Part shown: positions 2,716 through 20,000 of the stretch, piece by piece
How the letters are laid out: each line of letters starts with the position of its first letter
Numbering within the stretch: the first letter of the stretch is position 1
The notes under the pieces: generated by a model
What the model saw: the letters and a program-made list of their open reading frames with translations, nothing else
What the model was told of the DNA's origin: nothing
The model's database searches: none
DNA from: a virus
DNA: 26,983 nucleotides
Reading direction: 5' to 3' (one strand)
IMG/VR virus record: IMGVR_UViG_3300013101_000068
Coordinates: 1 to 26,983 of that record
Translations under genes and position numbers: made by a program

Positions 2716-3032
2716 AATATTTTTTTAATTTTTTTTAATAAATTGTTTTTTTTAAGAACTAGAGTTTCTTCAAATATCATACCAACTACTAATTCTTTAT
2801 GTTCGTGTTTTGGCTCCCAGGAGCTCATTAGAGCTTTAGCATATAAATATGCTTTTTCTTTCCATGAGCCCTTAACGTCCTCTTGTAATTCAATTTCTCC
2901 ACCATTAAAAAATAGTTCACTGAATTTTTGTATACCTTCTTTTGGATTTCTTTTTTTAGCTTCCTCTAATAATTCTGGAGTTGTATTTAATACCATAGAG
3001 GGTTCCGGAAATTTATATTCAGATAATTTCAT
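2712..3032 (-). CDS. Hypothetical soluble protein
   Basis: A 106-residue protein with no recognised domain. It begins MKLSEYKFPEPSMVLNTTPE, then runs through a Lys/Glu-rich helix (LLEEAKKRNP), a middle segment with SELFFNGGEIELQEDV, a Trp-containing segment, and a strongly basic end (VLKKNNLLKKIKKIL). No membrane helix is seen, unlike its neighbours on both sides. It overlaps both neighbours by the four-base ATGA junction, so its synthesis is presumably tied to the membrane proteins. It may be a cytoplasmic partner of one of them, but this is only suggested by gene order. Confidence 0.7.
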   Translation of the reverse strand: MKLSEYKFPEPSMVLNTTPELLEEAKKRNPKEGIQKFSELFFNGGEIELQEDVKGSWKEKAYLYAKALMSSWEPKHEHKELVVGMIFEETLVLKKNNLLKKIKKIL

Positions 3033-3262
3033 AAAGCTAATTGTTTTTCTAATTTATTCATGTTCAATTCAAATGTGGGTCTACTAAAGATCAACATTGT
3101 AATTTCAAATAGGAAATGCATACCAGCAAAGGCATAATGTAATATTCCTAAAATTAAAGATATAAAGAAAAAGATAACATAATTCGTAGTTTCTTTAATT
3201 CCCATAATTCTATTCCAAAATTTGAGTTCTTTTTTCCAAAATACATTAAATAGTCTCTTCAT
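3029..3262 (-). CDS. Small membrane protein
   Basis: A 77-residue protein with a basic, aromatic N-terminus (MKRLFNVFWKKELKFWNRIM), followed by a long hydrophobic stretch from about 27 to 59 that could form one long or two short membrane helices. It ends in a polar tail (FELNMNKLEKQLAL). The N-terminal arrangement of Lys/Arg and Trp looks like an amphipathic helix lying on the inner face of the membrane. The start at 3262 overlaps the upstream gene by 17 nt and the stop overlaps the next ATG as ATGA. No family recognised. Confidence 0.7.
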   Translation of the reverse strand: MKRLFNVFWKKELKFWNRIMGIKETTNYVIFFFISLILGILHYAFAGMHFLFEITMLIFSRPTFELNMNKLEKQLAL

Positions 3263-4997: not shown

Positions 4998-6212
4998 TTA
5001 ATTTATTATTTCTTCTTTTACAAATTTTAAAGATGCTTTTCTGCTAGTCCAATCAAATCGACCTAATAATGCTTTATCTCTAATAAAGTCTAAAGCCTTT
5101 CCAATGCTAGGGCCTATTACATGAAATATCTCTTGGATATCATTACCAGATATTTTTAGATCTTTTGTTGATTTTGGTATAATACCGTTATTCATTAATC
5201 CTATTATATGTTCTATAGAGTATGGTAATATTTTAGCAAATTCTATAGAAGGTGATTTTTGGATTGCATTAAATACTGCTAATCTTAATTTTAAAGATGA
5301 TGGAGGTGCAGAATGCAATGCTTCAACATCTAATAAAATATCTAATCTTTTAAGGGCTTCAAATGTTTTTGTATCTCCCTTTAAGAAATCATTATAGAAA
5401 TCAGATGGGATTTTACCTCCAGCTATTCCTAATACGTAGAAAAATGATAAAGGATCTAATTGTTCTAATCCATCAAATCCTATTAATTCTTGACCAAAGA
5501 TTTCTTGAGCTAAACCACTATCATTTATTAATTTAAATGCTATGTTAGTATCTCCATCCTTTTTAACTATTTTCTGGAGTTCATCTAATATTCTTTCATG
5601 AGCTATCTCAGATATATCAGCTGCATTATCGCGCATCATATTTAGTGTATTTGGTTCTATATCAAACTCAAATCTAGATGCAAATTGAATGCCTCTTAAT
5701 ATTCTTAAAGGATCTTCAGTAAATGCTATATCATTAGTAGCTTTTAATAATCTACGTTTTAAATCATTGATTCCATTAAATGGATCTACAAGACTATTAT
5801 CATTTATATTAAATGCCATAGAGTTTATTGTAAAATCTCTACGTTCTAAATCTTCTAATATATTTTTTGCTTCAATTGATTCAAATCCTTTATGACCTGA
5901 TCCAACCTTTATATCTTTACGAGGGATTGCTATGTCAAATGGCTCTCCTTTAAATCCTTTAGGTTTAAATATTACAACCTTAAATGATTTACCTTCTTCT
6001 AACACTTTTCCGAATGGTTTAAGTGTTGACATAATATCTGAAACTTTCATTCCTTCTATTACTAAATCTATATCTTTGGACGATTTATTTAAAAATGCAT
6101 CTCTAACAATTCCTCCTACCATATAAATGTTAGAACTCTTTTGTATGAGAGATTGCATCCATTCATTAGATTTTAAATCCTCTCCTAATATTTTTAATTT
6201 TCTTAAAGACAT
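4998..6212 (-). CDS. cca: CCA tRNA nucleotidyltransferase / poly(A) polymerase family protein
   Basis: A 404-residue class II nucleotidyltransferase. Visible motifs are GGIVRD at 33-38, the metal-binding pair in DIDLV at 47-51 (Asp47, Asp49), a third carboxylate in FDIA (Asp93), RRDFTINSMA at 124-133 (ribose and nucleotide binding), and EDPLRILRGIQFASRF at 166-181. The helical body follows with HERILDELQKI at 205-215. The enzyme adds CCA or part of it to tRNA 3' ends from CTP and ATP without a template; family members may instead add only A or C residues. The length is close to bacterial CCA enzymes and no HD phosphohydrolase domain is evident. The next upstream gene is a KptA 2'-phosphotransferase, so the pair suggests repair of damaged tRNA during infection (inference). 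A TATATTTG element lies 4 nt before the ATG, predicting its own promoter with little or no leader. Confidence 0.9.
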   Translation of the reverse strand: MSLRKLKILGEDLKSNEWMQSLIQKSSNIYMVGGIVRDAFLNKSSKDIDLVIEGMKVSDIMSTLKPFGKVLEEGKSFKVVIFKPKGFKGEPFDIAIPRKDIKVGSGHKGFESIEAKNILEDLERRDFTINSMAFNINDNSLVDPFNGINDLKRRLLKATNDIAFTEDPLRILRGIQFASRFEFDIEPNTLNMMRDNAADISEIAHERILDELQKIVKKDGDTNIAFKLINDSGLAQEIFGQELIGFDGLEQLDPLSFFYVLGIAGGKIPSDFYNDFLKGDTKTFEALKRLDILLDVEALHSAPPSSLKLRLAVFNAIQKSPSIEFAKILPYSIEHIIGLMNNGIIPKSTKDLKISGNDIQEIFHVIGPSIGKALDFIRDKALLGRFDWTSRKASLKFVKEEIIN

Positions 6213-6216
6213 AGAA

Positions 6217-6224
6217 CAAATATA
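6217..6224 (-). promoter_or_regulatory. Candidate Bacteroidota-type -7 promoter element (TATATTTG)
   Basis: On the minus strand TATATTTG matches the Bacteroidota -7 consensus TAnnTTTG and ends 4 nt before the ATG at 6212. The same element with the same spacing occurs at 8587-8594; the two sites share TAGTnTTATATTTGT. A good -33 TTTG is not seen at the usual distance, so activity is uncertain. If used, the transcript would be nearly leaderless. Confidence 0.45.
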
Positions 6225-6248
6225 ATACTATTTTTTAAATATAAAAAA

Positions 6249-6788
6249 TTATTGCAAAAATTGTTTTGGTACAGCTTCTGTTAGCCATACATTATTTTCA
6301 CTTAAATAAAACTCATAACCCATATTATGCATTTGTAATGCAGGAATTCTAAATATGACTAAGTTATTCTGATATTTAGCATAACGCATCCCTACTTGAG
6401 TTGCTACAGATATATCACTACTTAAATGTACATGATTCCTCCGCATTTTCTTTAAACCGCCACTTTTTAAAATCTGTTTTTGACTTGATTTAGAGGTTCC
6501 ATGATATAATATTTCAGGGGGTGTCATTCGCTTAAAATCATCTTTAACTTTAAGCGAATGCCCCTGACTAGCCTTTATTCTTAATTGATTTTTATCATAT
6601 CGAAATCGCTGTTTATCATTTTCTAATACAATATAGTCTAAATCTTCTTTAGACATATCTATTGCTTTTAGCAAATCTTTAACAAAACACCATCCATATT
6701 CATCTAATTTTAGATTTGCCTTTTCGGGGGAATGGCGCAATAATAAGCTTAAATACCTACTCTTGTTTTTTATATTTTTGTTTTTCAC
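6249..6788 (-). CDS. kptA: RNA 2'-phosphotransferase (KptA/Tpt1)
   Basis: A 179-residue protein, the usual length of bacterial KptA. Conserved signatures are in order: SRYLSLLLRHSPE at 10-22 (the LRH motif at 17-19), GW at 32-33, the QGHS motif at 75-78 with the catalytic-type His77, YHGT at 95-98, HVHLS at 119-123, GMRYAK with Arg135, FRIPA, and SENNVWLTE at 163-171. The family transfers an internal RNA 2'-phosphate to NAD+, giving ADP-ribose 1'',2''-cyclic phosphate and nicotinamide. Some members also ADP-ribosylate RNA or DNA ends. A phage copy beside a CCA-adding-type enzyme suggests repair or editing of tRNA ends after host nuclease attack (inference). The start at 6788 overlaps the upstream gene by 32 nt; no later Met precedes the conserved RHSP. 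Confidence 0.93.
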   Translation of the reverse strand: MKNKNIKNKSRYLSLLLRHSPEKANLKLDEYGWCFVKDLLKAIDMSKEDLDYIVLENDKQRFRYDKNQLRIKASQGHSLKVKDDFKRMTPPEILYHGTSKSSQKQILKSGGLKKMRRNHVHLSSDISVATQVGMRYAKYQNNLVIFRIPALQMHNMGYEFYLSENNVWLTEAVPKQFLQ

Positions 6789-7056
6789 GTTTTCTTTGAG
6801 TTAAAAATTCTTTTAATGATAGTTGCTTATTTTCAGTAGCTGGGCATATACAATTCTCTTTAATCCCACGATTATAATTACGTATAATATTTAAAAGTTC
6901 TATATTTTCTTTGCTTTGTCCGTTACTAACAATATCAATTCTTAAAAGTCGTATCACAAATTCTGTAATACTCATCTTTTTTAAATAATATTGGAAAAAA
7001 GCGTTGGTAAATAATTCACGTATAACGCTTGGTGTATTTTTATTTTTATTCTTCAT
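6757..7056 (-). CDS. Hypothetical basic protein
   Basis: A 99-residue protein ending in TAG, one of only two minus-strand genes I noted with that stop. It has a basic start (MKNKNKNTPSVIREL), an aromatic helix (FTNAFFQYYLKK), a middle with NIIRNYNRGIKENCICPATENK and a very basic end with FLTQRKREKQKYKKQE. The short CIC is not enough for a zinc site. It overlaps KptA by 32 nt and the upstream gene by 11 nt, so all three are probably co-translated. No family recognised. A link to RNA repair is suggested only by position and charge. Confidence 0.65.
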   Translation of the reverse strand: MKNKNKNTPSVIRELFTNAFFQYYLKKMSITEFVIRLLRIDIVSNGQSKENIELLNIIRNYNRGIKENCICPATENKQLSLKEFLTQRKREKQKYKKQE

Positions 7057-7702
7057 CTAAATATATGTCTAGGGCGTTCCCTAGTTGAATCATTTTTTTA
7101 ACTTCAAAACTTTTACAACCAATCTGAACTGTAGAATCTGAAACTTCTATATCGTAAGTCATATCATACGAGCCATAACCATAGCTTGTTCTTGAAGATT
7201 TTATTTTAATATGACCAAAACTATATGGCTCACGTGTTTTTGTTACGTATCCATGTTTTATCAATGATGTTACATCTAATACTCCAAATTGTGTTGTGAT
7301 TGTATTATTGTATATTTTAGTAATTGTTGCCCCCTTTTTAATCTCGGCAAAATCTTTCAAAAATGTTATGGTGGTTTTTTGTCCACGTTCAACTAATGAA
7401 ACATGTTTTTGTTTCTTACCTGTTTTTATATAAGCGCATATATCTTTCACGTATAGTAACGGTATTGATGCTCCATCCATTCTAACACATTCGCCCTTAG
7501 ATTTTAGTGTTTTGATTTTTTGAAATTTATACCCATCAGAATATGGTACTAATACTTCGCCTTCTCTTAATTTTTTGAGCATTGAAGTAGATGTAATCTT
7601 AGATCTTGTACAAACCCCAGACTCTAATAATTTTTCAGTAGCTTTTCCAGCCAATGATAAATATATTTCTTTATCTCCAAATTTTAATAATTCTAATCCC
7701 AT
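7046..7702 (-). CDS. Hypothetical soluble protein
   Basis: A 218-residue protein that I do not recognise. It is rich in predicted beta strands, Lys, Thr and Ser. The N-terminal part (1-60) includes GDKEIYLSLAGKATEKLLES and a segment LREGEVLVPYSDGYKF. The middle (95-150) contains TTITFLKDFAEIKKGATITK and repeated Thr/Ile strands. The C-terminal part has SYGYGSYDMTYDIEVSDS and ends in DIYLDEE. No catalytic motif, membrane helix or signal peptide is evident. Its 3' end overlaps the next gene by 11 nt. It lies within the tightly packed group that leads into kptA and cca, but a functional link is unproven. Confidence 0.7.
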   Translation of the reverse strand: MGLELLKFGDKEIYLSLAGKATEKLLESGVCTRSKITSTSMLKKLREGEVLVPYSDGYKFQKIKTLKSKGECVRMDGASIPLLYVKDICAYIKTGKKQKHVSLVERGQKTTITFLKDFAEIKKGATITKIYNNTITTQFGVLDVTSLIKHGYVTKTREPYSFGHIKIKSSRTSYGYGSYDMTYDIEVSDSTVQIGCKSFEVKKMIQLGNALDIYLDEE

Positions 7703-7713
7703 GTTTGTTTGTT

Positions 7714-7926
7714 TTAAACGTTATATGTTTTGCCAGGAGTATCTTTAAACCACCAGCTTGTTATGTTTTCATTTTCTTTTTTAATAGCTTTCATATATGC
7801 CATTGGGTTTTTAACCTTATCATATTCACAAACTCTTCCATTTGCTTCTTTCACACAAACTACTACACCACCAGGTTTTAATGATAGTGGGCTTGTTCTA
7901 TAGTCATCTCCTACTCTAAATCCCAT
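7714..7926 (-). CDS. Hypothetical 70-residue protein
   Basis: The start is placed at the ATG at 7926 (MGFRVGDDYRTSPLSLKPGG), giving 70 residues. The frame is open farther upstream, but that extension would run 113 nt into the preceding HAD-like gene and encode an atypical hydrophobic, Cys-containing sequence. The A-rich stretch ahead of 7926 is typical of starts in this genome. The protein has a strand pair around LKPGGVVVCVKEANGRVCEY that resembles a small SH3-like barrel, then a helix and SWWFKDTPGKTYNV. The turn pattern recalls KOW/SH3-type small proteins, but this is weak. It is 16 nt after the HAD-like gene. Function unknown. Confidence 0.7.
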   Translation of the reverse strand: MGFRVGDDYRTSPLSLKPGGVVVCVKEANGRVCEYDKVKNPMAYMKAIKKENENITSWWFKDTPGKTYNV

Positions 7927-7942
7927 ATTATTTTGTTTTATG

Positions 7943-8416
7943 TTAATATTTAGTAGACCACTTAGGGTCTGGTTTTTCTCCTCTTTCTTTCCATCGCAAC
8001 AGATAAGCATAAATATTCTCCCATTCAGCAATATCAAATCCAGCTTTATCTTCAAACATTACATTAAAATAGAACTTATCCTCATAATATCCGAAATTAC
8101 CTTTATTAGACGATATCTCAGGGTTATCACCAATATAATTAAATTTAATATCATGTTCTTTAAATAATTTTTGTATTTCTTTAATTTCTCTTGGATATGA
8201 ACTAGTCCACATAATCATAACTATATTATCTAATTTTGATAATATTTGTAATGTTTCCTTTGCAAAAGGAAAAAAATCTTCTTCTGTGGGTGCTCTATTT
8301 AAATCATAATTAGCTTTAAGTATCGTATCGTGTATATCAAACACCCAATACGTTTCATAATATTCTTTTATTTGACCTATTTTAAAAGTCTTCTTTATTT
8401 GATTTAAAACGCTCAT
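7943..8416 (-). CDS. HAD-superfamily hydrolase-like protein
   Basis: A 157-residue protein with HAD motifs: WVFDIHDTIL at 24-33 (candidate nucleophile Asp27), MIMWTSSYP with Thr71 or Ser72 as motif II, a lysine near 105 as motif III, and FNVMFEDKAGFD with Glu122/Asp123 as motif IV. Unlike the canonical DxDxT, the position two after the nucleophile is His29, followed by Asp30. This residue is normally the general acid/base, so phosphatase activity may be altered or lost. Small phage HAD proteins include 5'-nucleotidases and polynucleotide 3'-phosphatases; the substrate here is unknown. The cap is short. The start at 8416 is one base after the stop of the upstream 54-codon gene. A 3'-phosphatase role in the RNA-repair block is possible but speculative. 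Confidence 0.75.
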   Translation of the reverse strand: MSVLNQIKKTFKIGQIKEYYETYWVFDIHDTILKANYDLNRAPTEEDFFPFAKETLQILSKLDNIVMIMWTSSYPREIKEIQKLFKEHDIKFNYIGDNPEISSNKGNFGYYEDKFYFNVMFEDKAGFDIAEWENIYAYLLRWKERGEKPDPKWSTKY

Positions 8417-8621: not shown

Positions 8622-9299
8622 CTAGGAAATATTTTTGGAAATTTCATTAACTCTATCAACTAGTTCGTTAATAGTTTGTTGTTGATCTTGTATAATTTGG
8701 AGAGTCTCTTTAAATGTAATAGATCCATTTATCTTAATATCATTTACATGAACCATGCCTTGTTGATCTACTAGAAATTCATATTCATCATATTTACTAG
8801 ATGTTATACCAAGTATTGGTCGATTCCCTTTAGGTGATAATCCGCCAACAATAACTAATGGAATGTTAGAACTAACATCACTTTTAGTTTTTCCCATGAA
8901 ATAGAGACCTGCATCATTTTCATCAGCGCCCATACCAATTATTTCTGGTATAAAACCTTTTGAAGTCCCATTACCCATTGAAAATCCATATGACCCATCT
9001 CCTATATGAATAATGGTTTCTAATTGATCGACATTTGCTTCCAGATCAAATTTAGCATTAAAGTTTGGACTTCTACCAACTCCAATATTAGAATCTTTAA
9101 AATATAAATTAGTATTACGTAATCTACCCTTTAAATCTAAAGGATTTGGGGTGTCCCAATGTAATGAACCCTCAACATCTATTGATAAATGTTTTGTTTC
9201 TAGACCAAAATAATCTGGAGATATTTCAACTATACGTTTACCAGCACTATCAATTTGTATTTGATGAAATAAGATATTATGATTTTTCATCTTTTTCAT
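8622..9299 (-). CDS. Putative virion protein, tail-fibre-like
   Basis: A 225-residue protein with features of phage fibre or baseplate components. It is beta-rich and Gly/Asn-rich, with DSNIGVGRSPNFNAKFDLEA at 69-88 (recalling the 'IGIGxxP...KLDV' pattern common in fibre proteins), IHIGDGSYGFSMGNGTSKGF, and GADENDAGLYFMGK in the middle. A final region with HVNDIKINGSITF leads into a coiled coil (about 198-225, heptads in LQIIQDQQQTINELVDRVNEI). No intramolecular chaperone catalytic motif is seen. It would be a trimeric structural protein (inference). The start at 9299 overlaps the upstream gene by 23 nt; a second ATG three codons later is equally plausible. A 39-nt gap with a promoter-like element follows. 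Confidence 0.65.
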   Translation of the reverse strand: MKKMKNHNILFHQIQIDSAGKRIVEISPDYFGLETKHLSIDVEGSLHWDTPNPLDLKGRLRNTNLYFKDSNIGVGRSPNFNAKFDLEANVDQLETIIHIGDGSYGFSMGNGTSKGFIPEIIGMGADENDAGLYFMGKTKSDVSSNIPLVIVGGLSPKGNRPILGITSSKYDEYEFLVDQQGMVHVNDIKINGSITFKETLQIIQDQQQTINELVDRVNEISKNIS

Positions 9300-10107
9300 C
9301 TTTTTTGTCTATATCTTGATTCTTAGTTTTTTCAGGTATTTGTTTAGGCTCTTTGACTTTCTTATTTTTCTTAATATACTTTTTCCATGCCTTAATATAA
9401 TTGTTTATAGATGTACACAATTCGTAATTTTCAACACTCTCAAAATAATCAATAAAAGTTTTCATTAAATGAATTACATTTTTATCTTCTACTATCACAA
9501 TCATTTTTAAATCTGCATAGATAACACAAGTATTATCATCCATCTCTAGATTTTCAATAAAAAATTGATTCCAATAATCTTGAACTTTGTCTGAAAATTG
9601 ACTAAAATTATTTGGTTTAAAAAAATCTTTGCTTTGTTTATGCTGATTAAATTCAAACAAAACTTTTTTATCTTTAGTTGGACCTAATGTAGTTAAAAAC
9701 ATTAAATTATCTGACGATTCTCCATCAAGAGGAGTTTTTTCAGTAGTTAATACATCTTTAGCTATATCATCAATAAATAATAAGACATCATTTTTAAAGT
9801 CTTCATATGAATTGAGAATAATTGGATCATTTAAATTCCAAGCTGGATCTAGCTCACCGTCATGAATCATTACCATTGGCGAGTTAATATCTTCTCCTAC
9901 AATGCCTGTTGCTATTCTATTAAATTCTATTGGATCTGAATCATCACTATGACCCCATATGCACCAAGTATTTGGAACCTCTATTAATCGTAGAGTTCTT
10001 ATATCATCATATCCTGCTAAAATATCAAGAAGTTCATTATCTGTAAAAGTTAAGCCTTCAGCTTTGAAGTCTTCGATAATTCCATTGCTATATTGTAAGA
10101 TCGCCAC
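9277..10107 (-). CDS. Hypothetical acidic protein with lysine-rich tail
   Basis: A 276-residue protein beginning with GTG at 10107 (MAILQYSNGIIEDF); no ATG lies upstream in the 68-nt gap. Residues 1-230 are acidic and globular in character, with Trp-containing segments such as NTWCIWGHSDDSDP and LDPAWNLNDPIIL. The C-terminus (about 240-276) is a highly charged Lys/Glu/Asp tail probably disordered. No family is recognised. Its position directly upstream of, and overlapping, the tail-fibre-like gene suggests a structural or assembly role, but that is inference. The antisense GIY-YIG gene now separates it from the acidic DUF2693-like gene, with which it may once have been contiguous. Confidence 0.7.
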   Translation of the reverse strand: MAILQYSNGIIEDFKAEGLTFTDNELLDILAGYDDIRTLRLIEVPNTWCIWGHSDDSDPIEFNRIATGIVGEDINSPMVMIHDGELDPAWNLNDPIILNSYEDFKNDVLLFIDDIAKDVLTTEKTPLDGESSDNLMFLTTLGPTKDKKVLFEFNQHKQSKDFFKPNNFSQFSDKVQDYWNQFFIENLEMDDNTCVIYADLKMIVIVEDKNVIHLMKTFIDYFESVENYELCTSINNYIKAWKKYIKKNKKVKEPKQIPEKTKNQDIDKKDEKDEKS

Positions 10108-10175: not shown

Positions 10176-10931
10176 ATGAAAAAAATTTATATTTATTTAA
10201 CCTCAAATCAATTAAACAATAAACAATATGTTGGTAAACATGCTTCTAATAATATTGAAAATGATACATATTTAGGTAGCGGAAATATAATAAGTGCAGC
10301 TATAAAAAAATATGGCAGAGAAAATTTTAAAAGAACAATTTTAGAAGAATGTACCAAAGATAATTGGGTATCAAGAGAAGGATATTGGATAAAAAAATTA
10401 AACTCTATGAGTCCAAATGGTTATAATTTAACGTATGGAGGTGAAGGGGGTTTCGACACATATTCCCTCTTATCTGAAGAAGACAAACAAAAATGGAGAG
10501 ATAAATCATCAAAAACTCATAAAGGTAAAATATTATCTAAAGAAACTAGAGAAAAAATTAGTAAATCACGTATGGGTATGTCTCCTTCAAATAAAGGAAT
10601 TCCACATTCTGAAAAAACTAAAGAATTAATGAAAAAGGCTTGGGAGACAAGGAATCCTGTTACTGAGGAAACTAAAGAAAAACACAGACAAAATAAGATA
10701 GGAACACATCATTCTACAGTAACTAAAGAAAAAATAGGATACGCTAATTCTTTAAGAGTTTGGAAAGAGGAATCTAAACTTAAAATAAGCGCAGCTAATA
10801 GAGGTCTTAAAAGATCTCAAGATGTTATTGATAGAATGAAAATTAAATACAAATGTATTCATTGTGGAAAAGAGATGAATAGATCTAATTTAACACGTTA
10901 TCACAATGATAATTGTAAGATTAAATCTTAA
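10176..10931 (+). CDS. GIY-YIG homing endonuclease with NUMOD3 repeats and C-terminal zinc finger
   Basis: The only plus-strand gene here, 251 residues. The N-terminal GIY-YIG nuclease domain (about 1-95) shows IYIYLTS at 4-10, KQYVGKH at 16-22, and REGYWIKKLN with catalytic-type Glu68, then NGYNLTYGGEGG. Residues 105-215 hold several NUMOD3-type DNA-binding repeats: SKETREKISKSRMG, SEKTKELMKKAW, TEETKEKHRQNKIG and a similar fourth. The C-terminus has a CxxC...H...C zinc-binding pattern (Cys227, Cys230, His243, Cys247). This is the layout of free-standing phage homing endonucleases of the SegA/Mob type, which cut genomes lacking the gene and spread by repair. It is inserted antisense between two minus-strand genes and its stop overlaps the stop of the DUF2693-like gene. 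The upstream gap holds AT-rich sequence with TATATAAT-like promoter possibilities. Confidence 0.93.
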   Translation: MKKIYIYLTSNQLNNKQYVGKHASNNIENDTYLGSGNIISAAIKKYGRENFKRTILEECTKDNWVSREGYWIKKLNSMSPNGYNLTYGGEGGFDTYSLLSEEDKQKWRDKSSKTHKGKILSKETREKISKSRMGMSPSNKGIPHSEKTKELMKKAWETRNPVTEETKEKHRQNKIGTHHSTVTKEKIGYANSLRVWKEESKLKISAANRGLKRSQDVIDRMKIKYKCIHCGKEMNRSNLTRYHNDNCKIKS

Positions 10932-11953
10932 AATTCGTCTTCTTCTGATTCTATTTCTAAAGGTGGTTCTTTAGTTGGAAAAGATGGTTGAACAAATGGG
11001 TGTTCAGTATTTATTTGTCTAGGAAGTAACACGGTTTCATCTCTCATAGCTTCCGGAGTTTCTACTGGTTTAACATTCGTTATTGATGATCTAACAATTG
11101 GTTCAACTTTAGGTTTAGTATCTATTTTATGAGCATCTTTTATTTTCCAACCATATCTAGCGTGTTTTTGTTCAACTTCAACTGGATCAACCTGAGGTTT
11201 GCTAATTGGCTTAAGCTTTGGTTTACTAACAGCTCTAATCTTTTCAATGTCAGGATCATTAGAATTATCATAGAATGGGTCCTCTTCCTCTTCATCTTCA
11301 TCATCGTCCCAATCAAAATCATCATCTTCAAAATCAAATTCTTCTTCATTATCAAATTCATCAGATGGATCTATATCAAAGTCAAATTCGTCATCTGATC
11401 CTTCAGCGTCAGGACTAACATAATCAAAATCAGTATCTTTATCGCCAGTTGATGTTGGTTCTGAAAAATCTGGTTCTTCAGTTTTTGATACATTATCATC
11501 ATCTGGATCTTCATCTGGATCTTCTTTATCTCTTACAATAAAAACAGGTTTTTTTGGTTCTCCTTTTTCAGAGAATGCATATTTAAGTACTATTTCTTTA
11601 GATCTTTGAGAAACACTTCTCCACGCTTTCTTTTCTAAATCAAAAAATGTTGCGACTTTTTTAGAAGATGGTCTTATTCCTTTTGGATGATCTGGTGTTG
11701 GAATATATTTCATCATCGTAGTGCCTTTAGCCTTACGAACTTCCCCATCTAATTTAATAAATTCAAAATTAAGTATTTTATTTCTTAAAATCTTTCTTAA
11801 TTCGGGAACCCCTACAGGCTCCCCAACTAATAACTTCTCTAAAAGTAGTTTATCATAAAAAAAATCAACCATAGACTGTTGATTAGCAGATTCACATAAT
11901 CTGCTATCATACAATACTTCAGTTAATATTTGTTTAATTTTAAATTTGTCCAT
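10928..11953 (-). CDS. DUF2693-like SH3-fold protein with long acidic tail
   Basis: A 341-residue protein. Residues about 48-122 match my recollection of the DUF2693/SH3-fold family common in Bacteroidota phages: ILNFEFIKLDGEVRKAKGTT at 60-79, MKYIPTPDHPKG, and VATFFDLEKKAWRS at 100-113. Residues about 140-235 are a disordered, extremely acidic region dominated by Asp, Glu and Ser. The remainder (236-341) is Pro/Lys/Val-rich linker with VKPVETPE and a C-terminal ESEEDEF. The N-terminus (1-45) is helical and contains RLCE-SAN, which fits a T4-type prohead-protease site pattern. Its ATG overlaps the AAA+ gene stop as TAATG (11951-11955), so the two are co-translated. The acidic part could act as a DNA mimic or an electrostatic tether. 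Function unknown. Confidence 0.75.
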   Translation of the reverse strand: MDKFKIKQILTEVLYDSRLCESANQQSMVDFFYDKLLLEKLLVGEPVGVPELRKILRNKILNFEFIKLDGEVRKAKGTTMMKYIPTPDHPKGIRPSSKKVATFFDLEKKAWRSVSQRSKEIVLKYAFSEKGEPKKPVFIVRDKEDPDEDPDDDNVSKTEEPDFSEPTSTGDKDTDFDYVSPDAEGSDDEFDFDIDPSDEFDNEEEFDFEDDDFDWDDDEDEEEEDPFYDNSNDPDIEKIRAVSKPKLKPISKPQVDPVEVEQKHARYGWKIKDAHKIDTKPKVEPIVRSSITNVKPVETPEAMRDETVLLPRQINTEHPFVQPSFPTKEPPLEIESEEDEF

Positions 11954-13803
11954 TATTTTCTTGAAGAAGATGTTATGCTTCCATATTTGTCCATAAATAT
12001 TTCACCACCTACATGATATTTAGTTAAAACTTTTCCATTAGCATCTTTTATAGTACCATCAACAGAATCATTTATGTATGGATGAGCAGCAATCATTAAT
12101 TTAAATGCTTGCGTTGCAAATGCGCCATTATCTAGTTTAACAAGATATTTGGCAAATCCTTCCCACAATTTAGGTGGCAATTGTTTTTTCTCATCATAAT
12201 CCATTTTTGTATAAGACGCGATAATTCCCATAAGAGCTCCAGCTTCAGCTAAATCAAGACCTGTACCTTTATCACCTCTTGTAGGTATCTTCGCTTTTTC
12301 TGGATGTGTTAAAATATTTTTTATATCTTGAGTAGTATATTTCATCAATAATAATAAGAATTGTGCTACTACATCAGCAGCTTCAACGCCTACAGCCTCT
12401 GCAACAGCTATATGAATATCCCTTTTAGTTAATGCTATTCCGTTTTCTTCTGCATATTGTGTTTGCGCAGCTAAATTCATTGAGCAGGCTTCCCAAGTTC
12501 TTGGCGTTGGTGAAGCAATCATTTTATCAGGATTTTTAAGGGCACGGTAAAACCATTTGTTGGGATCATTAAATTCTAAAAATGATAAAATTTTCATATC
12601 TATTTTTCCAGATTTAATTGCCCATTCTTTCCATTCTTCAAAGGTTGGTACAAAATTAACATGATTAAATCTTCCTGCTAATGCATTACCTACACCAGTA
12701 ACTCCTTCTGCTTCATCTTGTGTTCTGTTAGATGCAGCAATTATTGTCCATAAAGATCCTAATTTGTATTCACCCATAACTCTTTCTTCTACAAGTTTAA
12801 GACATGTATTCATAACCATAGGATCGGCTCTTGATAATTCATCTAAAAATAATACTCCGCCATTACCTTCATTCGCAGCATCATTTCTTCTTTTATCTAC
12901 TTCTGGATCCTTTGGATTTGTTGTTGGTAACCAAACTGGTAACCAGAATTTAGGAATATCTACATTTCGTAATGGCATTGGGGGCATAGCGCCTCTTCCT
13001 CTGCCAGCTTCTTCAGAAGCATCTCTATCTTTTCTAGTACCCGGAACCTTTCCATCATCATATTCTATATGAATATTAGGATCTTGGATAGTTGGAAGCA
13101 TCCAATCTTCTGGAGCCATTTTACTTGTTTGTACATCAATAACTCGTCCCCAATCAGTTCCAGCATTTACAACTTGATTTACGATTTGAGTTTTACCTAT
13201 ACCAGGTGCTCCCCAAATCATTAATGATTTATACGCAGTGTTTCCTTTACGGATTTGGGAAATTGTAATATTTATTTCTTTATGTAACTCAGTTGATTTT
13301 ACTGTTGTGACATTAGATATTTCTTCATCCCATTTTAAATCAATTAAATCAAATTTTTCATCAATATCTTTAACTACTTCGTTTAATTTATTATTTAATG
13401 ATTCACGAACTAAATTCTTATTATCTTCATTATTTTCTCCTAATAAACTATATGGATATAAAACTAATGCATCTATTTTCTCTTCATGATCGCCTGATCG
13501 TTTACTTAAAGATGTTTGTAAATTACCATTTAATCCAGGTTCTAAATTTTTATCTACATCATCTGGTATAAATGAAATTGCTTTAGTATTAATTCTATTT
13601 TGCTTAGCAAATAATCCTATATTTGTAGGAAGAGAAACTCCACCGATTGGTTGCCCATTAAATATAATACTAAAATGATCTCCAATTTTTTTGATTAAAC
13701 TGAGCATTTTGCTTTTGATTCCCTGCAAAATTCCTTCATTAATATGATTTGCATATGAATCATGCGCTGATTCTGAAACTATTTTATTTTTCATTGTATT
13801 CAT
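11953..13803 (-). CDS. MoxR-type AAA+ ATPase
   Basis: A 616-residue protein. The N-terminal 165 residues are specific to this protein and include SYANHINEGILQG (about 16-28). The ATPase core has LMIWGAPGIGKT (Walker A, 198-205), GGVLFLDELSRAD (Walker B, 315-327), IIAASNR (sensor 1 Asn359) and NALAGRFNHV with Arg378 as the likely arginine finger. The sequence between Walker A and B contains an insertion rich in Pro, Arg and Trp (260-300). A C-terminal helical domain follows. MoxR-type ATPases work with VWA-domain proteins as remodelling or maturation chaperones. Here the VWA/metallopeptidase gene lies immediately upstream with a 16-nt gap, giving the classical pair. The substrate is unknown; virion assembly or host-complex remodelling are both possible. 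Confidence 0.85.
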   Translation of the reverse strand: MNTMKNKIVSESAHDSYANHINEGILQGIKSKMLSLIKKIGDHFSIIFNGQPIGGVSLPTNIGLFAKQNRINTKAISFIPDDVDKNLEPGLNGNLQTSLSKRSGDHEEKIDALVLYPYSLLGENNEDNKNLVRESLNNKLNEVVKDIDEKFDLIDLKWDEEISNVTTVKSTELHKEINITISQIRKGNTAYKSLMIWGAPGIGKTQIVNQVVNAGTDWGRVIDVQTSKMAPEDWMLPTIQDPNIHIEYDDGKVPGTRKDRDASEEAGRGRGAMPPMPLRNVDIPKFWLPVWLPTTNPKDPEVDKRRNDAANEGNGGVLFLDELSRADPMVMNTCLKLVEERVMGEYKLGSLWTIIAASNRTQDEAEGVTGVGNALAGRFNHVNFVPTFEEWKEWAIKSGKIDMKILSFLEFNDPNKWFYRALKNPDKMIASPTPRTWEACSMNLAAQTQYAEENGIALTKRDIHIAVAEAVGVEAADVVAQFLLLLMKYTTQDIKNILTHPEKAKIPTRGDKGTGLDLAEAGALMGIIASYTKMDYDEKKQLPPKLWEGFAKYLVKLDNGAFATQAFKLMIAAHPYINDSVDGTIKDANGKVLTKYHVGGEIFMDKYGSITSSSRK

Positions 13804-13819
13804 TTTTTTATTTTTTTAT

Positions 13820-15808
13820 TTATTTAATATCATCTTCATCGGCAATCTTTAAAATTTTACCCCACGGAAATCTTTCTCGCATTTCTTTCATTTCCATGCT
13901 ACCATATAATAACCATATAAATTTATTAGAAAATGTTGGAACCTTTAGAGTTGAATTATCATGATTAAATCCATCTGTCGCAAATACAACTAGACTTGGA
14001 TTCTTTAGAAATTTTTCAACATAATCTAATGGATGCTGAAATACAGTACCTCCGCCTCCTGGTACTTCCCCATTTTTTGGAATCCAAGGTTGATTACCAC
14101 CTTTTATTTTTTGAATAGAGGGAAGATGAACATTGCCATCAAAAAATATAACGGTAATCTCTTTAACCTTTTTAGAAAACACAATTTGGTTAATTTCGTT
14201 TAGTATTCTTGTTTGCCAATCTCTGTTCATAGACCCTGATACATCAACTAACACTACAACATTATTTATAGCGTCACGTTGTTTTTTAGCGCCGTATCTT
14301 AATATTTTTTGGCCAGCTCTCATATGACGTCTATTACCTAATTGCCATTTTTTATTACTAGATAATGCAGTAGCTACAAAGTTAGCAAATTCTTCTTTCC
14401 AATTAACGTCTCCCTTAAACATTCTTTTAAGAGCTGCTTTAAGCATTCCACCAACTGATGTACCTCCTGACTTTGCATCGATGGCATCGATGTCGTCCAT
14501 TAATTTTCGAGCGTTATTACTCCATTTTCTTTCAGAATCTTCATCATCTATTGCACCATGTCCAGCATTACGCGCAATTTGTTTTCCTCTTTCTTTAGAA
14601 ATTAAAATACCAGTATTTCCAGGATCTGCGTCGACAGTGACTATAGTTTTACCGCCGCTTAATTCAACTTCTTTACCATCTTTGAATCCTTTAGCTTTTC
14701 CGTCGCCTTTACCTTTTTTATCTTCTCCTTTATCGTCTTTATTTTCTTTTGGGGGTAATTTGTATTCAACTTCTGGACCTGTGCCTCCACCTCCATCTCC
14801 ACCTTCTGGTGGTCTACCTGGTAAAATTGGAATTAATTCTTCACGTTTATACGTATTAATTTTATCATTATATACGCCTGAACGATCACCTTCACCATAA
14901 CTCTCATTCACATCTATTGGAGTGACTTCAAATGTGCCATCAGGATTAGTTGAAACGATACGACCAACACCGCCTGTTGATTTTATTCTAACTTCATCAC
15001 CAACAGCTAATGGTCCCGGAGGTTGAGGTGGGGGTGGTGGTCCGCCACCTGGTGGTTGTTTTGGATCTGGTTCACCGTCCCCTGGTTGAGGAGGCATGTC
15101 AAGTGTTGGTGTTTCATCATAAATCATATCGTATATGGTTTCAACTGGCATATTAAGATATTTAACATCATATAATCCATGAATGGATTTTACGGTTTCT
15201 GGAGAAAAATGCTTTGAAAGAGTATCTACTATAAGAGCATTTATTTCATAATCTGCAGCAACATTAAATAAAGATACATTTTGTGATGTTGGATTACCAT
15301 TTGCATCTTTCCCTGTCATAACTAAGGTTGCATTACGACCTTTCATTCTATCCATATGATTCATCACACAATGCATGATTTCGTGTATTAAAACGAAAAT
15401 TCTTTGGGAGAATGTTAAACCTTGAGCAAATTGAGGATTAACAAATAATCTAACCCCATCAGTTGCCATCGTTTTAATTTCAAAAGTATAAATTGGCGTA
15501 AATTCATTAACATAAGGTCCAAATAATGGAGCTTGACCAATGATAGTAACATTAGCTTTTGTCATAACTTTATTTAATGCCGCTATATCAATTTCTGTAC
15601 CATCTGGTGATATAACTACATCACAATCTTCTATTAAAGTTTTGCCAGCAATAATTTGTTCAGATTCATAAATAAAATTATCAAGACTTGGATAAAAACT
15701 TTCTTCTATAACAGATAATTTATCGTTAGGATCCGGATATATGATATTAACAGGAATATCTATTTTAGATAACTCTGCAAAAAAATCTTGTATTGTTGGA
15801 TAAAACAT
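13820..15808 (-). CDS. DUF2201-like metallopeptidase/VWA-domain protein (MoxR partner)
   Basis: The start is set at the ATG at 15808 (MFYPTIQDFFAEL), giving 662 residues. A start 13 codons upstream is open but would encode AT-driven residues and overlap the previous gene. The N-terminal half has FVLIHEIMHCVMNH, an HExxH zinc-metallopeptidase motif (142-146), and NVAADYEIN about 40 residues on, as in DUF2201-type proteins. A Pro/Gly-rich stretch with an inserted SH3/KOW-like segment (VGDEVRIKSTGGVGRIV) and a charged linker follow. The C-terminal VWA domain has the MIDAS sequence VDVSGSMN (Asp522, Ser524, Ser526), GGGGT and FATDG. The order peptidase-like then VWA matches proteins encoded beside MoxR ATPases, and a MoxR gene follows here. 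Whether it hydrolyses peptides is not known. A TATAAATA element lies 17 nt before the start. Confidence 0.85.
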   Translation of the reverse strand: MFYPTIQDFFAELSKIDIPVNIIYPDPNDKLSVIEESFYPSLDNFIYESEQIIAGKTLIEDCDVVISPDGTEIDIAALNKVMTKANVTIIGQAPLFGPYVNEFTPIYTFEIKTMATDGVRLFVNPQFAQGLTFSQRIFVLIHEIMHCVMNHMDRMKGRNATLVMTGKDANGNPTSQNVSLFNVAADYEINALIVDTLSKHFSPETVKSIHGLYDVKYLNMPVETIYDMIYDETPTLDMPPQPGDGEPDPKQPPGGGPPPPPQPPGPLAVGDEVRIKSTGGVGRIVSTNPDGTFEVTPIDVNESYGEGDRSGVYNDKINTYKREELIPILPGRPPEGGDGGGGTGPEVEYKLPPKENKDDKGEDKKGKGDGKAKGFKDGKEVELSGGKTIVTVDADPGNTGILISKERGKQIARNAGHGAIDDEDSERKWSNNARKLMDDIDAIDAKSGGTSVGGMLKAALKRMFKGDVNWKEEFANFVATALSSNKKWQLGNRRHMRAGQKILRYGAKKQRDAINNVVVLVDVSGSMNRDWQTRILNEINQIVFSKKVKEITVIFFDGNVHLPSIQKIKGGNQPWIPKNGEVPGGGGTVFQHPLDYVEKFLKNPSLVVFATDGFNHDNSTLKVPTFSNKFIWLLYGSMEMKEMRERFPWGKILKIADEDDIK

Positions 15809-15825
15809 ATTTAAGTACTTTAATT

Positions 15826-15833
15826 TATTTATA
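15826..15833 (-). promoter_or_regulatory. TATAAATA element, possible T4-type late promoter
   Basis: Minus-strand TATAAATA, identical to the T4 late promoter -10 box, lies in the gap between the 369-residue gene and the VWA gene, 17 nt before the ATG at 15808. A second copy is upstream of nrdJ. In such AT-rich DNA this octamer occurs often by chance, so confidence is low. Confidence 0.3.
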
Positions 15834-15836
15834 TAT

Positions 15837-16946
15837 TTAATTATCAAGATACTTAATTAACCTATGAACTAAGTCAGTATAAGTTGCCATTACGTTTTTA
15901 TAAATGCTACTACTATGAATGGATAATTTAAGTGTGCCTATCTTATATATCATATAAGTTCGACCACGATGGCTTGGATTTATAGATGGTAAATACGCCT
16001 TTATAGTACCATTTTTCTTTTGTCTATCAGTTGATTGTATAATAAATCCATGATCTGTTAATAATTTAAGTGCTTGCTTAAGATTTTTCTGTCTAAATTG
16101 ATCTGATCTATTAGCAAATGAATCCATTTTAGATTTTGCTCCAAATGCTGCAACGAAAAGTTCAGGTATATTATTTTTAACATATATGACTAATGAGCCA
16201 TCAGATTTAAATTTTTGCATATACTTTATTGCTGTATCAGGGAATTTTTTATATAATGTTTCTATATTTAAATTATATGCTAACCAATTTTTTCTAACAA
16301 TTGCAGTTTTCAAATATTCTGTTAATACTTGATTTGACCATGATGAATCAACAATAAAATCAAATTCAGAATAATTTTTTCCAAGCATATATGCTGGTTT
16401 TTGAATTAATATTTCGCGAGCTCTTTTTTCACTTAAATCTAACACTAAAAAATTATCTGGAGTTATGTATTTGTTTACATTTTTATTAAATATTTCTATA
16501 GCTTTATCTATGAATTGATCCGGGATTTTATTTTGTTTTAAAGCATAATCTAAAAAATCGGTTTCTGAGTTAAATGTCCAATATAATTTTTTATTTTTTA
16601 ATATACTCGGAAATATATAATTTTTGTCTATTCGCCATTGATACATGTTTCTTATTGCATCAACAAAATCATATATAACATCTATTGTGCCTGGCACTAA
16701 TTCTGCATTAGCAAAAATTGTGCCATCAGGCGGGTTATTAACCCAACCTGAATTAAATTTTAATTTAATATAATTATCTTCAAGTATTAAATTAAAATTT
16801 CTGTTAGTTGTGGAATAATTATCTATATAATTATTAAAATCGTCTAATGCTTTTGATATTAAATAAGAGTGCCCAGTATTAAGAGCTTGATATGAATCCA
16901 TATCTTCTTCAAACTCAAAAAGTCGCGGATAGAAATTTTTAGACAT
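15837..16946 (-). CDS. Hypothetical protein, first gene of the MoxR-VWA block
   Basis: A 369-residue soluble protein that I do not recognise. The N-terminal region (1-130) is rich in Asn, Tyr and Phe with acidic patches; the middle (150-260) contains helices such as FIDKAIEIFNKNVNKYITPD. The C-terminal part (about 285-350) has FRQKNLKQALKLLTDHGFII followed by a strand pair and RGRTYMIYKIG, resembling a helix-turn-helix or winged-helix layout but without a secure match. It is the first gene after the terminator at 16974-17002 and thus probably leads the transcript with the VWA protein, the AAA+ ATPase and the DUF2693-like protein. MoxR-VWA systems often have an extra adaptor or substrate gene, a role this protein could fill (inference). 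Confidence 0.7.
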   Translation of the reverse strand: MSKNFYPRLFEFEEDMDSYQALNTGHSYLISKALDDFNNYIDNYSTTNRNFNLILEDNYIKLKFNSGWVNNPPDGTIFANAELVPGTIDVIYDFVDAIRNMYQWRIDKNYIFPSILKNKKLYWTFNSETDFLDYALKQNKIPDQFIDKAIEIFNKNVNKYITPDNFLVLDLSEKRAREILIQKPAYMLGKNYSEFDFIVDSSWSNQVLTEYLKTAIVRKNWLAYNLNIETLYKKFPDTAIKYMQKFKSDGSLVIYVKNNIPELFVAAFGAKSKMDSFANRSDQFRQKNLKQALKLLTDHGFIIQSTDRQKKNGTIKAYLPSINPSHRGRTYMIYKIGTLKLSIHSSSIYKNVMATYTDLVHRLIKYLDN

Positions 16947-17024: not shown

Positions 17025-20000
17025 TTAACATCTCGAATAACCACAAGATATACATTGCACACATCCTGATTCAGTTATGAGTTTATCACCACATTCTGGA
17101 CATGCCTCTCCATCAATTTCATAAGCATCAGCATATCTAGATAAATATCTTCGAACTACTGAAGAGAATGATGAAATATTTTCATCTACTTTCTGAACTA
17201 TTTTATTAATATAATCAACCTTAACTCCGTGTCTTAACATAGCTGATATCGTTAATGTTAATGATCGTTCCTCGATTCTATTAGATGCTAATTCTAAATT
17301 ATCGATTTCGAAATCACCATTAATAAATTTATAATGCCCTTTTCTAATTTTAATTATTTTACCTCTAGTATTTTTATCACTAGGAGGATTTTCAAATGCA
17401 AAAAATTCATATGGCTTATTTTTATATAGTCCTACAATAACTGCAAACTTTTTACCTTGCGCTGTTGCTGAATAATAATCTGCTGGCAATTCTTTAGGTC
17501 TTTTAGGCGATGTTGTTTCTAAGAAATCTTCCTCATTACTTTTCTTTTTAGTTGATAAAACTCCAGATCTAGAACCTTCTCTATAAATAGTACATCCTTT
17601 ACAACCAGCTTTCCATGCTTGGAAATAAATGTCATTAACTGCTTCCACAGAAATATCTTCAGGTAAATTATGAGTTACTGAAATTGCATGATCTACCCAT
17701 TTCTGAATAGCACCTTGCATATTTACTTTCTCTTTATAATCAATATTATGGGACTCACTTCCAGCCCATGGGGATTGTGCAACTAACTCATTTAATTCTT
17801 TTTCATTTAATAGTTGAGGATCTATCTCTTTTTCATTTTTGCACCATCTTTCAAATGGTGCATGTAATACATAATATTCTTCCCATGAATCTCCGTTATC
17901 ATCAACATAATCAACTTTAACATTTTCTTCATTAGCATTAACTTTACGAACCCTATAAAAGAAACATTTAAATACTGGTTCCATACTGGAAGTTGTTTGA
18001 GCTTCAATAGCTAATGAACCAGTTGGAGCAATAGATAAATTAGCAATATTTCTACGACCAGTATTTAGATATTGCTCATATTCTTTATTATCAAAGTTAT
18101 TAGAAATAACTCTCATAATAAATGGATTACCTGCTTCTTTGTCAGCATCCCATAATAAAAATGCGCCTCTTTCTTTTGCAAGATTTACACTTTCTCTATA
18201 TGAATTAATTGCCATCACTTTAGCTATCTCTTCTGCAACCTTAGTAGCTTTTTTACTACCATATGTAATTCCTAAAGACGCTAATGCATCGCCTAAGCCG
18301 AGCATCCCTAAACCAGTTCTACGACCGTTTTGAAGTACTCGTAATACTTCTGCCCATAATTCTATTTCAGTTCTTTTTATATTTTTTGCTTCAGGATCTT
18401 TCTTAAGTTTTTTAAGAATTTTATTAATTTTTTCTTCTTCTAAAGTTATAACATCATCCATAAATCTTTGAGCCATTCTAGTCATCCGAGCTAATTCTGC
18501 CCATTTAACTCTAGCTTTAGATGTATATGGTTTATCAATAAATGCAGCAATGTTAATTGAACCTAAACGACATGAATCATGTGAGCTTAAAGGCACTTCA
18601 CCACAATTGCGAATAGTTATGCCAGAAGAGACAACATAATTATCATCTTCATATTTTGTTATTATGTCATAATTATGGTTGTCATCAACTGTTATATTAA
18701 ACACATCTTCGTATCCATAAAATTCAATTGATTTAACTTTATGATTTTCACAAACTTGATGTTTAAAATTTGTAAAAGATTTAAATCTAAAGTCATTTCC
18801 TATATTTTTAGGCATACCAGTTTGTTCAGCATATGCATACCATAATTTCCTAGTAAATTTCCCTTTTGCTTTAAATATTTTTTTTGCTTCAGTTAATATT
18901 TCATTATTTGTAAACCCACTATATTTACCATTTGATTCTCCTTTATGTGAAGCAAAATTTCTTTTCCATTCTGCAGTCATTTTATGATATGGATTTAAAT
19001 CTCCTCTCATATTTTTCGCATGAAATTCTCTATGATCTTCATGTGTCATTTCCATCAAATTATCATATGCATCATTTTTATTATTGCAATCTTTATGATG
19101 TATAGCATAAATTTTAGAATCTGGTGCACTGCCATTATAAAATTCATATATAGTTCTATATTGGCGTCTATTACGGTAATTGCCCCCGATCATTTTAGCC
19201 CCTACGCCAGAAATTTGTCTATAATTATTAGAATCAAAGGAATAAAATGGTGTTATAGAATCTCCAACTCTCAAATCTTTTAATTCTACATAATTTAAGT
19301 CTTTAGTTAATACACTATGATCAGGCGTTGCAATTAGATGACTTCCATCATCTAATGTTAATTTCCAAACTTTAGTTTTTGATTTAGTTAATCTTGGATT
19401 ACGTGCCCATTTTATTTGTTTTTGACCCGAATTAGGATTAGTAGAATAAACAGGTACATCTCTACCCTCTTCAACTAATTGTTTTATAGAAACTGCATTT
19501 CTTCCATCGGCAACAGCAATTAATGTATCACCGGTAATACAAGGATTTGTTCCTCTCGTTTCAAAACCATCGTCAGCATACATATCTGCTGGTGATTCTT
19601 TTATAATGTTATCCCAGAATAATACACCTGGTTCTGCATTCTTATGCGCCATTTTTATAATACCTTCCCATATATCACGAGCTTTAACTCGTTTTACGTA
19701 TGAACCATCTGATTGAATTCTAGTTTTATTATAAGGTATTTGTTCATCTATAGTTGGTTGTCCCTTTTGGATGGGCCATGCAAGATAAAAATCTTGATCA
19801 TTTTTAGCAGCTTCCATAAATTCATCTGTCATTTTAACAGATACGTTAGCTCCAGTTATTTGAGTTAAATCATCTTTAGCATTTATAAAATCTTCTATAT
19901 CTGGATGTTGAACGTGTAATGAAATCATTAAAGCGCCGCGTCTTCCATCTTGAGCAACTTCTCTAGTTGTATTAGAATAACGATTCATAAAAGAAACAGC

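Follow-up and report, generated by a model that had tools for sequence, protein, structure and literature searches.

NAD+-dependent RNA repair has been described for jumbo phages. According to the sections on RNA repair in two published accounts, cleavage by metal-independent host RNases produces 2',3'-cyclic phosphates, which a 2H enzyme opens to a 2'-phosphate that is then removed by KptA with NAD+ (PMC9503650), and tRNA 3' ends are restored by CCA enzymes (PMC7824862). The occurrence of KptA and CCA enzymes in jumbo phages, their presumed role in tRNA repair and the idea that they act against tRNA-targeting nucleases are already found in these sections (PMC7824862, PMC9503650). KptA enzymes, including that of E. 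coli, also erase an internal 2'-phosphate of tRNA (PMC9095486).

Here, we describe a viral locus in which a kptA gene lies directly beside a gene for a CCA-adding-type enzyme, a pair that seems to be a recently arisen variant of an already known type of viral RNA-repair island. The window, by which we mean the whole stretch of DNA analysed, is a 26,983-base IMG/VR virus record (IMGVR_UViG_3300013101_000068, positions 1 to 26,983). The features of the locus are the following:

3029-3262, minus strand: 77-aa syntenic anchor, with orthologues in relatives L300 and L302
3810-4991, minus strand: membrane-protein gene, with 29-31% orthologues that follow the ligase of L300 and L302
4992-4997, minus strand: 6-bp junction between the CCA gene and the membrane-protein gene, the slot of the RNA ligase gene in relatives
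4998-6212, minus strand: predicted class II CCA-adding-type tRNA nucleotidyltransferase, 404 aa (PF01743 and PF12627, PHROG 2244, fold)
6249-6788, minus strand: kptA/Tpt1-type RNA 2'-phosphotransferase, 179 aa, GTG start (PF01885, PHROG 5470, 7kw8)
6757-7056, minus strand: 99-aa basic orphan ORF from the ORF list, with a 32-nt overlap with the kptA start
7046-7702, minus strand: 218-aa orphan ORF between HAD and kptA, with no Pfam or PHROG match
7714-7926, minus strand: 70-aa ORF between HAD and kptA from the ORF list, with a weak homologue in L296
7943-8416, minus strand: HAD-type phosphatase whose motif I is DxH[DG], a conserved neighbour of the CCA gene in relatives
8622-9299 and 9277-10107, minus strand: two syntenic anchor genes upstream of the HAD gene, in an order shared across relatives

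A first-pass annotation of this DNA had claimed adjacent genes for KptA and a CCA-type enzyme on one strand, each with its complete family motifs. Both identities were confirmed, and both genes are intact, on the minus strand and separated by a 36-bp gap. More specifically, KptA matches Pfam PF01885 (E=1.5e-46, residues 8-171, profile positions 5-176 of 177) and, over its whole length, PHROG 5470 (E=2.1e-55); its top solved relative is 7kw8, labelled 'tRNA 2'-phosphotransferase' (E=6.6e-40). All KptA motifs are present (R18-H19, R61, QGHS 75-78, YHGT 95-98, R117, H121 and R135), and every residue invariant across ten aligned phage KptAs is kept. Judged by these residues, which cover the active-site set of the family (RH, R, R, YHGT and the H of VHLS), the window KptA is catalytically complete, with NAD+-dependent removal of 2'-phosphates as its predicted activity. 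Its identity to any relative found is at best about 47-51%, and its top viral match, in G001, is 47-48% identical. In the KptA tree, phage and bacterial proteins are interleaved with at least four forced changes, and the tree gives no settled position for the window KptA. The GTG start sits inside the preceding ORF. A compositional sign of recent kptA insertion was looked for and rejected, the GC content of kptA being 0.302 against 0.299 for the window.

The CCA-type protein matches PF01743 (E=1.8e-25), PF12627 and PHROG 2244 'tRNA nucleotidyltransferase' (E=1.2e-59). Its motifs are likewise all present (VGGIVRD 32, KDIDL 46, RRDFTIN 124 and EDPLR 166), and the corresponding polymerase-beta head motifs (GGxxRD, DxD, RRDxxxN and EDxxR) are conserved with little or no change across nine relatives. 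An AlphaFold2 model built on nine relatives reached a pLDDT of 89, and the top 15 Foldseek matches to it are all CCA-adding enzymes, with TM scores of 0.65-0.73 over the full length. The same model gave TM scores of only 0.48-0.52 with 3aqk, 3aql and 3aqm, which are labelled poly(A) polymerase, and the poly(A) polymerase signature was not found in the protein; a poly(A) polymerase identity is rejected by fold and signature. Past about residue 240, its C-terminal half, the protein has no Pfam family match, and it scores under every NCBIfam equivalog cut-off. On its modelled fold and complete catalytic motifs, it is a predicted class II CCA-adding-type enzyme. Single-protein scans with the CCA-type protein, the 13820-15847 protein and the 218-aa ORF product returned no relatives. 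The Bacteroidota-like promoter element TATATTTG occurs at window positions 6220 and 8590 (minus strand), exactly 12 nt before the cca and 8582 starts; as two sites against 1.5 expected are no excess, a separate Bacteroidota-type promoter for cca was rejected.

The source of the window can be placed by its polymerase, which is 56-66% identical to the polymerases of ten IMG/VR contigs, including G030 (259,840 bases), G036 (322,902 bases) and G038 (162,358 bases), and by a gene block running from 24479 down to 8622, whose order is kept in the window's relatives. The polymerase relatives and the conserved block suggest that the window comes from a jumbo phage and is only a part of its genome, with a full size of 260-320 kb going by those relatives. 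Prevotella Lak phages are the closest named records by polymerase (about 39% identity). Because of these Lak relatives, and because several of the nearest bacterial KptA rows are Bacteroidota, a Bacteroidota host is plausible.

Several other genes were observed in the window. The Family B DNA polymerase gene (20566-22011, 481 aa) stops after the start of the polymerase domain, is full length to PHROG 2062 and is probably a split polymerase. A ribonucleotide reductase (17025-20468) carries an intein and an HNH domain; some relatives match in two blocks that leave out the insert, and others (L260 and L261) align throughout. The sole large plus-strand gene (10176-10931) encodes a GIY-YIG/NUMOD3 homing endonuclease, related copies of which are scattered through G030 and other relatives. 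At 11953-15847, a MoxR-like AAA ATPase adjoins a DUF2201/VWA protein, a chaperone-like pair.

In this lineage, the CCA gene occupies a fixed place after the orthologues of genes 9277 and 8622, two anchors whose order is common to L256, L257, L258, L293-L297 and L302, and its syntenic orthologues in six relatives are 41-47% identical to the window protein. Five relatives (G036, G035, G038, L300 and L302) share the order HAD - CCA - RNA ligase, with HAD orthologues of 47-57% identity directly upstream of the CCA gene (loci L293 in G036, L295 in G035, L297 in G038, L300 and L302). The lineage ligase consists of PF09414 plus a PHA02142 OB fold; in G038 it is fragmented among homing-endonuclease-like matches, and in L300 and L302 it is followed by orthologues of window genes 3810 and 3029. 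The window order is HAD - three small ORFs - kptA - CCA - (6 bp) - 3810 ... 3029. Compared to its relatives, the window has kptA and the small ORFs as extra genes, and the ligase is gone from its usual slot. The comparison of gene order in related phages, which the first-pass annotation had proposed, shows that the adjacency of kptA and CCA is not kept and that the CCA gene belongs to an order, HAD-CCA-RNA ligase, that is conserved. In other phages too (L310 and L315), the CCA gene adjoins an RNA ligase gene.

The kptA-CCA pair is absent from every close relative examined, with the proviso that G035, L300, L302 and G038 are partial, so that absence of kptA cannot be claimed for their phages. 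In the sister genome G036, kptA (at 222 kb) and the CCA gene (at 99-100 kb) lie about 120 kb apart, and kptA is flanked by tRNA genes in a tRNA array, the genome carrying 51 tRNA genes. G030 has its CCA gene in the same place, with no kptA, tRNA gene or ligase match and with a tmRNA only, which implies that the CCA enzyme can work without the rest.

The HAD-like and small basic proteins upstream had been put forward as possible extra parts of the system. The HAD gene at 7943-8416 is real and conserved beside the CCA gene in relatives; no relatives of the small ORFs were found beyond the weak 7714-7926 match; for the 218-aa ORF, none was found among viral contigs. The best match of this HAD is a weak one to an NCBIfam BT0820-type HAD phosphatase, and its model is poor (pLDDT 58). 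A second HAD protein (150-1187, 345 aa) has capsule-biosynthesis phosphatase matches and a weak kinase match, and is 67% identical to a G036 gene at 192 kb. A PNKP-type RNA phosphatase is unsupported for either, the former being weakly BT0820-like and the latter capsule-phosphatase-like. A search of the flanking sequence for RNA ligase, PNKP and tRNA genes came back empty in this 27-kb window of a probably larger phage: neither RNA ligase nor PNKP was found among the scanned window proteins, with no ligase match at E<1, and there were no tRNA genes, also with a phage-tuned tRNA model, and no Rfam families. Two marks of an RNA-repair island, a ligase nearby and phage tRNA genes nearby, are hence both missing inside the window.

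To what extent the adjacency occurs elsewhere was assessed across viral and bacterial loci. Within 10 kb of kptA, a CCA gene is found at 2 of 62 viral kptA loci (L029 and L077) and at none of 80 bacterial kptA loci, and none of 72 viral CCA loci has kptA. CCA genes are present in 15 of 38 kptA-bearing records, mostly tens of kb or further from kptA. A conserved two-gene kptA-CCA operon is rejected by these counts and by the unlinked genes of G036. Linkage does recur in the unrelated contig L029, where the CCA gene overlaps kptA by 4 nt and comes first, the reverse of the window order; the refuting case named in the first-pass annotation, that the two genes are never linked, thus does not hold. 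Within that contig (L029:4674-7284), a GIY-YIG-like endonuclease ORF splits the CCA gene into two ORFs, directly upstream of kptA.

The surroundings of phage kptA genes bear on the substrate. In a sample of 19 kptA-bearing records with tRNA genes, picked mainly for length, a tRNA gene occurs no more than 2 kb from kptA on 7 of the 19 long contigs, where randomly placed positions on those contigs would give 1.5 (P about 3e-4); for a distance of 10 kb, the numbers are 9 of 19 observed and 3.9 expected (P about 0.006). The tRNA positions are good to about 0.1 kb, and two contigs chosen for local tRNAs are excluded from these figures. G036, discovered later and independently, agrees with this proximity. 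Because kptA lies near tRNA genes beyond chance, the result points to tRNA as the substrate of phage KptA. Mean tRNA density per 10 kb is 2.10 at viral kptA, 0.53 at viral CCA and 0.21 at bacterial kptA loci, means that mix phages of different size and are descriptive only. An RNA ligase is encoded somewhere in 18 of 35 kptA-bearing records; in G001, kptA is 2.8 kb away from an Rnl1-type ligase, and the region holds 16 tRNAs. Genes recurring within 10 kb of phage kptA include RNA ligases (two families), Thg1, NADAR and NAD synthase/NMN adenylyltransferase, and further NAPRTase, isochorismatase and PRPP synthetase. NAD+ biosynthesis genes were seen near kptA in L008, L035, L040, L004 and L072, and directly adjoin it in Bacillus phage G. 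The CCA enzyme of G001 (L017:772-2556) is extended at its N-terminus by about 200 aa, in which a ParB-like DGHHR motif was noticed by eye.

We hypothesize, with a probability of about 0.5, that the locus is an ancestral tRNA-repair island entered by kptA. The usual set in this jumbo-phage lineage is an RNA ligase, a HAD phosphatase and a CCA-adding enzyme, which would rebuild tRNA 3' ends after trimming or damage; the window phage would have gained kptA between the HAD and CCA genes, and the ligase gene is missing from its usual place. KptA would most likely strip a 2'-phosphate from tRNA (or other RNA) onto NAD+, releasing ADP-ribose cyclic phosphate, and this 2'-phosphate would stem either from breaks by host nucleases leaving 2',3'-cyclic phosphates or from re-ligated junctions. 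From the gene context, we infer a tRNA substrate, a counter-defence role and cooperation of both enzymes. The first-pass annotation had suggested that the two enzymes could together restore damaged tRNAs. A repair setting is supported by the HAD-CCA-ligase order of relatives and by kptA near tRNAs, but a dedicated KptA-CCA pair does not hold up, given that no close relative has it and that about 120 kb separate the genes in G036. The island reading is weakened because no ligase, kinase or tRNA lies in the 27-kb window, because kptA and CCA are unlinked in G036 and nearly all other phages, and because G030 keeps its CCA gene with none of the other components. With the ligase gone from its slot, the window KptA may heal ends for a ligase encoded elsewhere, clean re-ligated junctions or erase an internal phosphate.

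The alternative that survives best, although we consider it unlikely, is that the two genes are fortuitous neighbours, kptA being a single acquired gene that came with small ORFs and is functionally unrelated to CCA, and the CCA enzyme serving ordinary 3'-end maintenance of phage or host tRNAs. The rarity of the adjacency (two of the 62 viral kptA loci and none of the 80 bacterial ones), the location of kptA elsewhere in G036 and its absence in G030, and the interleaving of phage and bacterial KptAs with its forced changes speak for such a chance acquisition. Chance accounts less readily for a landing site that is tied to RNA repair in relatives, for the independent contig L029 with its overlapping genes, and for phage kptA genes lying near tRNA genes above expectation. 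It is improbable that KptA instead erases an internal tRNA 2'-phosphate set by an ArkI-like RNA kinase, as a host modification or attack, with no strand break involved. Published work shows KptA, that of E. coli included, removing U(p)47 both in vivo and in vitro, and shows that tRNA is phosphorylated by bacterial ArkI homologues (PMC9095486); the window, with kptA and without a ligase, would suit this role, but no ArkI-like kinase was seen in it and ArkI is known mainly from thermophilic archaea.

Several kptA-bearing phages have tRNA genes with short anticodon-loop inserts. In fungi and plants, a KptA-type enzyme clears the junction 2'-phosphate in tRNA splicing. By analogy, phage KptA might be a true tRNA-splicing enzyme that clears this phosphate after protein-based excision and re-ligation of such inserts, an idea we regard as highly improbable. 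In the kptA-bearing phage G014 (543 kb), tRNA-Gly(GCC) and tRNA-Thr(GGT) carry homologous 39/40-nt inserts (L238:130-240 and L239:89-203) that start just after the anticodon and whose removal leaves 7-nt loops, TTGCCAA and TTGGTAA; clean anticodon loops are restored only in these two cases. The anticodon loop of a tRNA-Arg(TCT) in L041 (13389-13542) holds a whole nested tRNA-like element including CCA, and its counterpart in L066 (14164-14240), a tRNA-Arg at the corresponding place, has no interruption. Other tRNA-like genes, in L235, L236 (G009), L237 (G012, two), L040:14494-14621 and L143:13920-14037 and 14184-14297, have acceptor, D and T arms, and in the position of the anticodon arm show an A-rich stretch and a short hairpin together with a shared GCAAWTT-like motif; these are perhaps Y-RNA-like or a new RNA. 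L143, found via CCA, likewise carries odd tRNA-like genes. L234 scored 39.6 bits against YrlA, under the 69-bit cut-off, and L240 and L241 resemble long-variable-arm tRNAs.

There is also only a slight chance that KptA, instead of removing 2'-phosphates, ADP-ribosylates RNA or DNA ends (giving a 5'-phosphate ADP-ribose cap) or consumes NAD+: some Tpt1/KptA-like enzymes do so in vitro (PMC11833690) and several phage kptA genes lie amid NAD+ biosynthesis genes, but this is a side activity, and the window protein keeps the residues invariant in ten phage KptAs and is closest to the 2'-phosphotransferase 7kw8.

Returning to a repair island entered by kptA, the window, G036 and G030, with and without kptA and ligase, offer ready comparisons for tRNA-targeting defence and counter-defence. 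We know of no settled natural substrate for bacterial and phage KptA; with kptA near tRNA genes and in the locus that holds CCA and ligase in relatives, the search for one narrows to tRNA.

Compared with known systems, the window KptA resembles the Tpt1/KptA family (PF01885, e.g. 7kw8) in its full-length match and complete active-site residues, and differs in being viral. The CCA-type protein shares all catalytic motifs and the full-length fold of class II CCA-adding enzymes (PDB 1miv, 6q52 and 3h38), but unlike them has a C-terminal half without a Pfam match and falls below the NCBIfam equivalog cut-offs. With T4 Pnkp/Rnl1 tRNA repair, the locus would share a presumed purpose, countering tRNA-cutting host defence, whereas the window has no kinase-phosphatase or ligase and its HAD is BT0820-like. 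ArkI/KptA reversible tRNA 2'-phosphorylation (PMC9095486) is similar in that KptA takes a 2'-phosphate off tRNA, and differs in that no kinase partner is seen in the window. The nearest likeness is to jumbo-phage NAD+-dependent RNA repair (PMC7824862 section 3.4.9; PMC9503650 section 3.7.3), in which KptA, a CCA enzyme, RNA ligases and HAD phosphatases are proposed to restore RNase-cut tRNAs; those sections describe neither kptA beside cca nor a HAD-CCA-ligase order, and unlike those systems the window has kptA inside the island and the ligase absent from its slot. As far as those sections of PMC7824862 and PMC9503650 show, the HAD-CCA-RNA ligase order, the gain of kptA where the ligase is absent, and the measured association of phage kptA with tRNA genes are new.
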